From: Halocatena pleomorpha
GTDB taxonomy: Archaea > Halobacteriota > Halobacteria > Halobacteriales > Haloarculaceae
NCBI RefSeq assembly: GCF_003862495.1
Contig: NZ_RRCH01000002.1
Span: 62,001-126,000 of the forward strand
DNA length: 64,000 nt
Direction: 5' to 3'
The position numbers and the translations under genes are program-made. Shown in pieces: positions 20,326-54,400 of the stretch. The notes beneath the pieces are model-generated. The model saw nothing but the letters and a program-made list of their open reading frames with translations, was not told where the DNA came from and did no database searches. The stretch's first letter is position 1, and each line of letters begins with the position of its first letter.

Positions 20326-20783
20326 ATGGTTCGCTTTTCTTTTCGTCTCTTCCGGATCCTTGGCAACCTCGTCCAGAAAGGCATCCAGCAATGGGCGTAC
20401 CCAATGTTCGTCGAACTCGTGGCGTACAAGGTCGAATCCACGGAACTGTCCGTGAACACGGTGAACTCTGCATATACGAGCCAGCGGTGTAGTCACTGCG
20501 GGTTTACCCACGAGAATAACCGGGATGAGAAGGTGTTCGAGTGCGTGGTGGGGACGAGGCGAACACGGACTACACTGCGGTCGCCGGACAACATCCGGCG
20601 AGCAACCGGAACTCACTGAGCTCCGGTGACAGCGAAGAATATCGCCAACCGATACTGCAGGTATATCCATCGCGGGCAGACGTCTCGCGGGGGATGGGCC
20701 ACCAGTCAACTGACAAGTCTCAGGGGTCGACCCCGAGGCGGTTGACACGCAACAATAGGAATCACGCTCAATTGGCTATGTGA
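20326..20783 (+). pseudogene. TnpB (IS200/IS605) C-terminal remnant
   Basis: The frame from 20326 contains LVAYKVESTELSVNTVNSAY and TSQRCSHCGFTHENNRDEKV, the C-terminal zinc-ribbon part of TnpB. A shift near 20550 leads to NTDYTAVAGQHPAS and a tail resembling haloarchaeal TnpB ends. The catalytic N-terminal and RuvC portions are missing. A dead fragment of a TnpB-type element. Confidence 0.7.
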
Positions 20784-52254: not shown

Positions 52255-52575
52255 GTGATTCCGCTCGATGTGTTTGGCTCGGAATCGATCGCAGCAGATC
52301 TGCTGGAACAGGCCCGCTGGCGTGACGGCGTTGAATGCTCCCGCTGCCGTTCTGACCGGACGGTCAAGAACGGCAGCTATGGGCCGTTTCAACGCTATCT
52401 CTGTAAGAATTGTGACCAAACGTTCAATGATAAGACCGGCACGATATTTGCTCACTCGAAGATCGCGCCCCGCAAGTGGTTGTTCTCGATCGAGAGGGAC
52501 ACCATCACCTTCGGTGTGTCTAGCCACCCTGCGTTTCCGCTGTATCAACGTGCGCTAACGTTTATGAACGCGTGA
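52255..52575 (+). pseudogene. IS1595-family transposase N-terminal fragment
   Basis: LLEQARWRDGVECSRCRSDR, TVKNGSYGPFQRYLCKNCDQ and TFNDKTGTIFAHSKIAPRKW form the zinc-ribbon N-terminus of haloarchaeal IS1595 (ISH4-like) transposases. After FSIERDTITFGVSS the frame departs from the family and soon stops. The DDE catalytic domain is absent. Confidence 0.75.
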
Positions 52576-52663
52576 TTGGCGAGTGCAAGGAGTGAAGAGA
52601 CAGAGACTGGAATACTCACCCCGAACTGGCGGGTACAGTATCCTGATTTTAGCTGGATGCAGG

Positions 52664-52735
52664 CGCTAAGCCCCCGTCCTCAAGGAGCACCGCAGTCCGC
52701 GAAGCGGACAAGGAGCGCAGTAGGGCGGGGATACA
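52664..52735 (+). ncRNA. Relic right end (omega-RNA-like hairpin) of another TnpB element
   Basis: CCCCCGTCCT (52671-52680) pairs imperfectly with AGGGCGGGG (52722-52730), enclosing a perfect inner hairpin GTCCGC-GAA-GCGGAC (52695-52709). The flanks (AAGCCC, CAAGGAGC, GCGCAGTAGGGCGGGG) match the layout of the right end of the TnpB element at 54320-54371. It is probably the tail of a second, otherwise lost, TnpB element; omega-RNA activity is inferred. Confidence 0.5.
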
Positions 52736-52822
52736 GCGCCGTCATCATCTGTTCATACACGATACTACTGCTGGCCCACAGGCCCACGCAATCGAAACGC
52801 TTTTGTGCATAGAGTATATACT

Positions 52823-52951: not shown

Positions 52952-53310
52952 CGAATGTACTACGCCTACAAATACCGTCTCAAGCCGTCCGACGCCCACC
53001 GCGAGGAGTTGGACCGCCACCGCGATATTTGTCGGCAACTGTACAACCACACGCGCTACCGCCTCAACGAATACCGCGATGAACACGGCGAACTACCGTC
53101 CATGACCACCCTACGGTCGGAACTCCCCGACCTCAAGAAGTGGTGGGACGGCCTCTCGGACGTGTACTCGAAAGTTCTCCAAACCGTCGTGGAACGCCTA
53201 TTCGACAATCTGAGTAGCCTTTCCGCACTCAAAGAAAACGGCTACAGCGTCGGACAACTCAAGTGGAAACCGCCACGCGAGTTTCGCAGTTTCACCTACA
53301 GTCAGTCTGG

Positions 53311-53368
53311 TCACCAGAAGCCGAAGGCTTCTGGTTGGCAGCCAGAAATCTGTGATTTCTGGCGACGG
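53311..53368 (+). repeat. Twin-hairpin element THE-1 inside tnpB
   Basis: A 58-base insert starting TCACCAG and ending GCGACGG. Stem 1 is CCAGAAGCC-GAA-GGCTTCTGG. A TTGGCA spacer leads to stem 2, GCCAGAAATC-TGT-GATTTCTGGC. It interrupts tnpB between SQSG and FKLD and shifts the frame. Confidence 0.75.
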
Positions 53369-54146
53369 CTTCAAGCTCGACAAGAAGGGCGGTCAGACCG
53401 TGCTGTCACTCTCGAAACTCGCGGACATCCCGATTCGGCTCCACCGCGCCATCCCCGACGACGCGAAACTGAAGCAGGTCACGGTCAAGAAGGAACCAAC
53501 GGGTGAGTGGTTCGCTACTTTTGGCGTGGAGGTTGACCGCGACCTCCCAGAGAAACCCGACGAGTTGACCGAGACGGTTGGCATCGACGTGGGCATCCTG
53601 AAGTACGCCCACGATACCGACGGCCACGCAGTCGAGTCTCTCGACCTTTCTGACGAACGAGAGCGATTGGAACGCGAGCAACGCAAGCTCTCACGGAAGC
53701 AACACGGGTCGAACAACTACGAGACGCAACGGCGACGAGTCGCAGAGTGTCACGCCGACCTCCGACGGAAGCGCCGCGACTTCTTACACAAGTTGTCGAC
53801 CTACTACGCCCGAGAGTACGACCTTGTGGCCGTCGAAGACTTGAACGTCTCGGGGATGATGGAGTCACCATCGAACAGCCGCAACACCGCCTCCGCCGCG
53901 TGGCGAACGTTCCTCTCGTTGCTCGAATACAAGTGTGAACGAGCAGGAACGCACTTCGTGGCGGTAGCCCCGGCAGGAACGACCAAAGAGTGCGCTGCGT
54001 GTGGTGTCTCGACGGATAAGCCGCTATGGGTCCGTGAACATTCCTGTCCGTCGTGCGGGTTCACCGCCGACCGAGACTGGAATGCGGCGTGGAATATTCT
54101 TTCTCGCGGTATCAAGCAGTTAGGAGCGGGACGCTCCGAATCAACG

Positions 54147-54203
54147 TCACCAGAAATCTCAGATTTCTGGTTGGCAAACGAGACGTATCGCGTCTCGTCA
54201 ACG
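54147..54203 (+). repeat. Twin-hairpin element THE-2 inside tnpB
   Basis: A 57-base insert starting TCACCAG and ending TCAACG. Stem 1 is CCAGAAATC-TCA-GATTTCTGG, then spacer TTGGCA, then stem 2 ACGAGACG-TATCG-CGTCTCGT. The hexamer TCAACG stands both just before it and at its end. It is in frame (19 codons). Confidence 0.75.
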
Positions 54204-54256
54204 CCTGTGGAGACTGCGCTCCCTACGGGAACTACTACGGTTCCTGCAAAGCGCGT

Positions 54257-54305
54257 TCGCCAGAACTTATGGTTCTGGCTGGCTGCCAGACATAGTCTGG
54301 CAACG
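54257..54305 (+). repeat. Twin-hairpin element THE-3 inside tnpB
   Basis: A 49-base insert starting TCGCCAG and ending GCAACG. Stem 1 is CCAGAAC-TTATG-GTTCTGG, then CTGGC, then stem 2 TGCCAGAC-ATA-GTCTGGCA. It separates AKRV from VEAGS in the TnpB C-terminus. Confidence 0.75.
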
Positions 54306-54309
54306 TCGT

Positions 54310-54371
54310 GGAAGCAGGAAGCCCCACCCGCAAGGAGCGAACGGCGTCAGCCGTGAGCGAGTAGGGTGGGG
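54310..54371 (+). ncRNA. Putative TnpB right-end hairpin (omega-RNA scaffold)
   Basis: CCCCACCC (54322-54329) pairs with GGGTGGGG (54364-54371) around an inner stem ACGGC-GTCA-GCCGT (54341-54354). It overlaps the 3' end of tnpB. TnpB elements are known to produce a guide RNA from this position, so this is the likely scaffold; the guide would read into the flank after 54371. Confidence 0.5.
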
Positions 54372-54400
54372 TAGTTCACGATGTTTGAGATCAATAAGAC

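Follow-up and report, generated by a model that had tools for sequence, protein, structure and literature searches.

Twin-hairpin inserts in a haloarchaeal tnpB gene as members of a dispersed pan-haloarchaeal family of putative non-autonomous mobile micro-elements

Two adjacent hairpins can form a mobile unit, as in the double-hairpin elements of fungal mitochondrial DNA, i.e., in organelle genomes. Here, we describe haloarchaeal twin-hairpin elements with the layout CR-TC-[hairpin, 8-10 bp]-Y(T/G)GGC-like linker-[hairpin]-RA-CR, the two hairpins of each standing head to head, starting from three inserts in one tnpB gene of Halocatena pleomorpha. Their closest described class is the CGTC-tagged REPs (Di Nocera et al. 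2013, PMC3733652), which are known from bacteria only and include RPE-4 and RPE-6 of Rickettsia as well as dRS3 of Neisseria. Those repeats carry an unpaired CGTC (or TGTC or CCTC) at one end of each hairpin (PMC3733652). Common to both groups are head-to-head dimers with terminal CGTC at both outer ends, stems of 8-9 bp (eight modelled pairs per hairpin in our case), in-frame intragenic copies as in the Rickettsia RPEs and occasional residence within palindromes. A dedicated transposase is not known for the CGTC REPs, and none flanked by our elements was recognised in the loci read. In contrast, CGTC REPs start their stems with A-T in the first two positions and have a CCA-like tail, whereas ours start with CC, AC or TC (CCAGAA/ACGAGA-type), have TGGC-like linkers, occur almost never solo and show a duplicated CR dinucleotide. 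Because of these stem bases and tails we would not file the twin-hairpin elements as members of that class.

REPINs, built from GTAG REPs and moved by RAYT transposases, share the head-to-head doublet as a non-autonomous mobile unit. They differ in the tag (GTAG against CR-TC) and in their associated Y1 RAYT gene, while our elements persist in genomes without a detectable Y1-domain gene and no element-flanked gene was recognised in the loci inspected here. Among haloarchaea, SMR-A of Haloquadratum (Dyall-Smith et al. 2011, PMC3119063) is likewise free of a transposase and often found in IS605-type elements and in palindrome-associated transposable elements (PATEs); it is, however, about 110 bp long with inverted terminal repeats, commonly more than 95% identical within a type and without duplication, in contrast with about 57 bp, variable paired stems and a duplicated CR here. 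The PATEs of Haloquadratum are also short, palindrome-bearing and devoid of a transposase gene, but their palindromes are also those of IS605-type ends and their insertion leaves the target unduplicated, whereas the left ends of the IS flanking our elements look different from the elements by eye. The best reading is that the elements function in the same way as the REP doublets of bacteria, namely REPINs, CGTC REPs and the RPEs of Rickettsia, which would make them an archaeal and architecturally new counterpart. The RepRanger survey of 2025 did not include haloarchaea. A search of the open literature found no earlier haloarchaeal description; subscription journals lay outside this search, so one may exist.

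The window (the whole analysed stretch of 64,000 nucleotides) contains the features collected in Table 1. Compared with empty tnpB homologues, insert 1 (58 bases, 53311-53368) and insert 2 (57 bases, 54147-54203) are extra DNA with exactly the limits proposed in a first, sequence-only reading. The third insert had been called with 49 bases (54257-54305) but comprises 50 (54256-54305), as seen from the empty homologue, which has AAAGCG-CGTCGTGG at this place and GCGCG-TCGTGG around the junction. The tnpB frame that opens at 52955 (frame 2) is regained only when all three inserts (165 bases in sum) are taken out, in accordance with that reading. Insert 1 is a frameshift, and the first tnpB ORF stops at 53506; insert 2 is in frame and without stop. 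Clean empty alleles were found by alignment in H. turkmenica pHTUR01 (L042), Natrinema sp. DC36 (L043) and N. pellirubrum (L051).

Table 1. Twin-hairpin elements and their host element in the window
Feature	Position	Strand	Layout or sequence	Evidence
Element 1, in tnpB coding sequence (58-base insert)	53309..53368	+	GG/TC-[hp1 53313-53335]-TGGCA-[hp2 53341-53363]-GAC/GG	empty sites, hairpin scan, covariance model, folding
Element 2, in tnpB C-terminal tail (57-base insert)	54145..54203	+	CG/TC-[hp1 54149-54171]-linker-[hp2 54178-54198]-CAA/CG	empty sites, covariance model, folding
Element 3, in final tnpB codons (50-base insert)	54254..54305	+	CG/TTC-[hp1]-TGGC-[hp2]-A/CG	empty sites, covariance model, folding
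Element 4, in second tnpB fragment	20579..20631	+		covariance model 34.5 bits, folding z -4.9
Host tnpB, IS1341/IS605-type RNA-guided nuclease gene disrupted by elements 1-3	52955..54364	+		
Host IS left-end region	52660..52745	+	GGGGATACAG-CG-CCGTC = empty site	

The first copies at unrelated places of the own genome came from BLAST searches in which the tnpB region and insert 1 served as queries. A covariance model of 16 base pairs (eight per hairpin) was built from 22 copies of this genome and of plasmids; it scores elements 1, 2 and 3 with 71.6, 69.6 and 51.7 bits, respectively. Folded as single-stranded DNA the three inserts have z values of -5.9, -5.9 and -6.0 (0 of 200 shuffles as stable). 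Scanning the 64 kb for adjacent hairpins returned four pairs, two of them tnpB twin-hairpin elements, against 0-2 in each shuffled window. The fourth element separates the ADYTA codons from the AKNIA codons of a decayed tnpB fragment. No curated Rfam family matches the inserts.

In the model alignment 95.8% of the pairs are standard and 92 cells are changed on both sides (shuffled mean 25.7), while among 79 distinct copies 1157 of 1210 cells (95.6%) are Watson-Crick pairs, G-U takes 25 cells (2.1%; 112 expected if columns were independent) and A-C 6 cells, all these counts being taken on model-fitted alignments that lean to the model structure and on related copies whose cells are not independent events. 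Stems that differ and are still paired bear out the earlier view that structure and not sequence is kept. As selection at the RNA level normally leaves many G-U pairs, their scarcity points to a constraint to which both DNA strands are subject, or else to correction templated by the hairpins. Family hairpins are almost always partnered, no convincing solo half-element was seen among those examined, and the doublet is the unit. Over 109 distinct copies the insert length ranges from 42 to 75 bases with a mode of 57 and is a multiple of three in 77. The ends first described, TC(A/G)CCAG...C(G/A)ACG, fit the tnpB copies of the window but are too narrow for the family. Units can also form tandem arrays, as in C60 of the own genome with three units where G343 has one at the same place.

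The inserts belong to a dispersed pan-haloarchaeal family and are not special to tnpB. Model matches are present in 184 of 194 Halobacteria genomes, covering all 65 genera sampled, and in a phylum-wide sample they were found in 22 of 24 haloarchaea and in 1 of 124 others, there with a marginal E value (8e-5). The own genome has copies in at least about 40 distinct places, and one genome that was scanned more fully gave 74 model matches with both strands counted. Many copies at unrelated loci together with precise empty sites (tnpB sites 1-3, C17:42327, C36:11752 and C22:146644), the evidence asked for at the outset, support the initial suggestion of mobile micro-elements.

These empty sites also reveal the rule of insertion. 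The dinucleotide CR that flanks the element is duplicated (2 bp) or, equivalently, TC...RACR is inserted after a matching CR. The left end has most commonly the form CGTCN, and of the 109 distinct copies 76 have CG on the left and on the right, 14 have CA/CA and 3 are mixed CR; restricted to sites with unrelated flanks (n=55) the numbers are 44, 10 and 1 (p=3.8e-10). Only one CG is present in the empty sites at C17:42327 and C36:11752. The empty IS left end of the window obeys the same CR rule, and at this very CG a twin-hairpin element is present in relatives of the IS from other genomes (L142, L130). The empty site of C22:146644 follows the rule only if a small local change is allowed, and copies with a GG target (53309, 20579, C18:693) are offset by one base with the right boundary one further. 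The C17 and C36 insertion sites are near-perfect palindromes, and pre-insertion sites in general fold slightly better than control CG sites (-10.5 vs -8.8 kcal/mol, p=0.001), partly owing to arrays. A strong preference for palindromic targets was nevertheless rejected, since this gain is slight and the target CG is paired no more often than in controls.

Most aligned tnpB homologues are empty at the insert sites, so the inserts are not ancestral features retained at the same places in most of them, a possibility raised at the outset. In other genera sites 2 and 3 are either empty or hold twin hairpins with differing stems: site 2 is filled in this way in Natrinema gelatinilyticum, Halomicrobium, Halalkalicoccus, Halorussus, Natronococcus and H. 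turkmenica plasmids (6/6) and site 3 in four of the same six taxa. One of these six relatives has two additional hairpins nested within the twin-hairpin unit. Such differing stems at one site can be explained by repeated insertion at hot sites or by fast paired substitution within a resident copy. Related units that differ in their inner stem bases are present at C17 in two further genera, and some filled sites (C17 in the own genome, in G180 and in G159) may be old shared insertions with changed inner stems and not repeat insertions. A second tnpB tail of the own genome (L009, C20:12155-12445) corresponds to 54110-54380 of the window with about 88% identity over the whole stretch, whereas inserts 2 and 3 are letter-identical, for which gene conversion, constraint or a renewed insertion of these copies may account. 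In G014 C3 many pairs of model matches lie about 110 bp apart in constant order, as expected if an IS with both of its tnpB tail sites occupied had multiplied.

In known systems the 3' part of tnpB encodes omega RNA, the guide RNA of TnpB. The position of sites 2 and 3 in just this part, with twin hairpins there in homologues of several other genera, is what would be seen if the hairpins were structured parts of that RNA, owned by the IS, functional as RNA and themselves immobile. This is highly improbable, as many homologues lack them precisely, site 1 and the site at 20579 are located in the protein-coding part, and the identical architecture recurs in cytochrome P450, aldehyde dehydrogenase (ALDH) and other unrelated genes as well as in intergenic DNA; for the family as a whole this explanation is already contradicted.

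Of 29 best-scoring loci, each from a different genome, 15 are in tnpB or tnpA or within 700 bp of them, a much larger fraction than the 1-2% that we estimate such genes to make up of a genome. Other copies occupy intergenic DNA or are found in frame inside full-length genes, including those of ALDH, cytochrome P450, a GH3 glycosidase, a histidine kinase, an alpha/beta hydrolase and a GHMP kinase. In ALDH the insert corresponds to residues ~499-518 and falls between residues 361 and 363 of a solved homologue; in P450 it coincides with a gap in the structure alignment. The frame mostly used reads ...VDET...SANQNA-RSGD. Of 56 full-length copies 50 have it open, and its peptide is hydrophilic and slightly acidic, as expected if selection removes harmful frames. 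Conserved haloarchaeal enzymes with an in-frame element peptide of ~19 residues were noted at L192, L196, L085, L187, L198 and L209.

Strong folding together with the intergenic position of some copies is reminiscent of elements that act as structural RNA or in transcription, such as terminators or mRNA stabilisers, spread by recombination with mobility being secondary, and such roles were proposed for bacterial REPs (PMC3733652). We give this explanation very little weight, since copies that sit in frame within genes or reside in mobile elements, and do so in either orientation, are at odds with terminators and the compensatory changes avoid G-U. Archaeal bulge-helix-bulge introns, considered because removal restores the protein, are made unlikely by intergenic copies and by in-frame copies in full-length enzymes, which argue against splicing. 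H/ACA guide RNAs were rejected as well, the stems being without pockets on inspection.

Quite probably, judged from comparative evidence, the inserts are pan-haloarchaeal, non-autonomous and structure-defined mobile micro-elements that are moved in trans. An enzyme acting on them would recognise the folded hairpins (in single-stranded DNA or as cruciform) together with the CR-TC ends and would cut at CR/TC and RA/CR, and the released unit would enter another CR and leave the 2-bp duplication. The scarcity of G-U suggests that selection acts on the DNA fold, or that hairpins template correction, and not on RNA alone. Survivors would then be seen where harm is small, i.e., in other mobile elements, in intergenic DNA and, via the open hydrophilic frame, in surface loops of proteins.

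Concerning the mobilising enzyme, TnpA or TnpB had been suggested to spread the inserts, which is not supported: G086 has 20 model matches with neither a Y1 transposase nor a PF07282 TnpB detected. The number of Y1 genes and the number of copies among the matches listed are weakly correlated (Spearman 0.25). No Y1 match was obtained in 61 of the 194 genomes, with a median of at least 6 copies among the matches listed, and several genomes with 11-29 copies, counted likewise, have no detectable Y1 gene. This means that neither Y1 TnpA nor TnpB is clearly required, and past mobilisation by an enzyme lost since then is possible. The same data bear on the proposal that the elements are terminal-only (PATE-like) derivatives of IS200/IS605 that consist of left-end and right-end hairpins with the core deleted and are still moved by Y1 TnpA. 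Two hairpins within ~50-58 bp, the frequent placement in IS605-type elements and the weak correlation with Y1 genes would fit, and Haloquadratum is known to have PATEs as well as terminal-only forms of 52 bp (PMC3119063). This origin is unlikely, given the copy-rich genomes without detectable Y1, hairpins that by eye do not resemble the left-end and right-end hairpins of the enclosing IS, and the duplicated CR, whereas IS200/IS605 insert without target duplication; moreover, the published 52-bp forms keep a single palindrome (PMC3119063).

No element-flanked dedicated transposase was recognised in the loci inspected, nor was a transposase-like gene between facing copies at C35 (58814/61287) and C23 (340483/341294). 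A more far-reaching version of the trans-moved micro-element would be a class-wide element whose only conserved identity is the folded shape plus the CR-TC edge, moved by an enzyme that the host encodes, that reads hairpins and that has no relation to Y1 TnpA or TnpB, and serving time and again as a source of ready-made in-frame peptides for haloarchaeal proteins; we regard this as conceivable, with the balance somewhat against it. If the mobile-element reading is true, nearly every haloarchaeal genome has an unannotated mobile family that disrupts or extends genes, leads to frameshift annotations in IS and puts peptides into conserved enzymes, and REP-like doublets are placed in a class of archaea. 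It would also sharpen the old question of what moves CGTC-type palindromes, as fewer candidates are left by genomes that are rich in copies but have no detectable Y1 transposase. This reading is open to direct tests, given the duplicated CR, the well-defined ends and the ease of working with Haloferax and Haloarcula.

Some further observations concern the surroundings of these elements. A repeated gene of the own genome (..AELYYVMDVG..QIEEILATAG..; L013, L015, L016, L114 and L115 on C23, C61, C34 and C33) has a twin-hairpin element at the same spot in every listed copy and is probably an unrecognised mobile element. At 52255-52575, just upstream of the tnpB element of the window, a short ORF with a CxxC zinc-ribbon-like stretch resembles a truncated transposase. 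The only Rfam match, DUF3800-X RNA at 54306-54381, is sub-threshold (23.2 bits against a cut-off of 38.2) and lies outside the inserts at the 3' end of the tnpB element. Finally, the native DNA between sites 2 and 3 (54204-54256) forms a small hairpin with paired substitutions among tnpB copies (also L044-L049), its variants including GGAAC...GTTCC, GATAC...GTATC and GACACC...GGTGTC.
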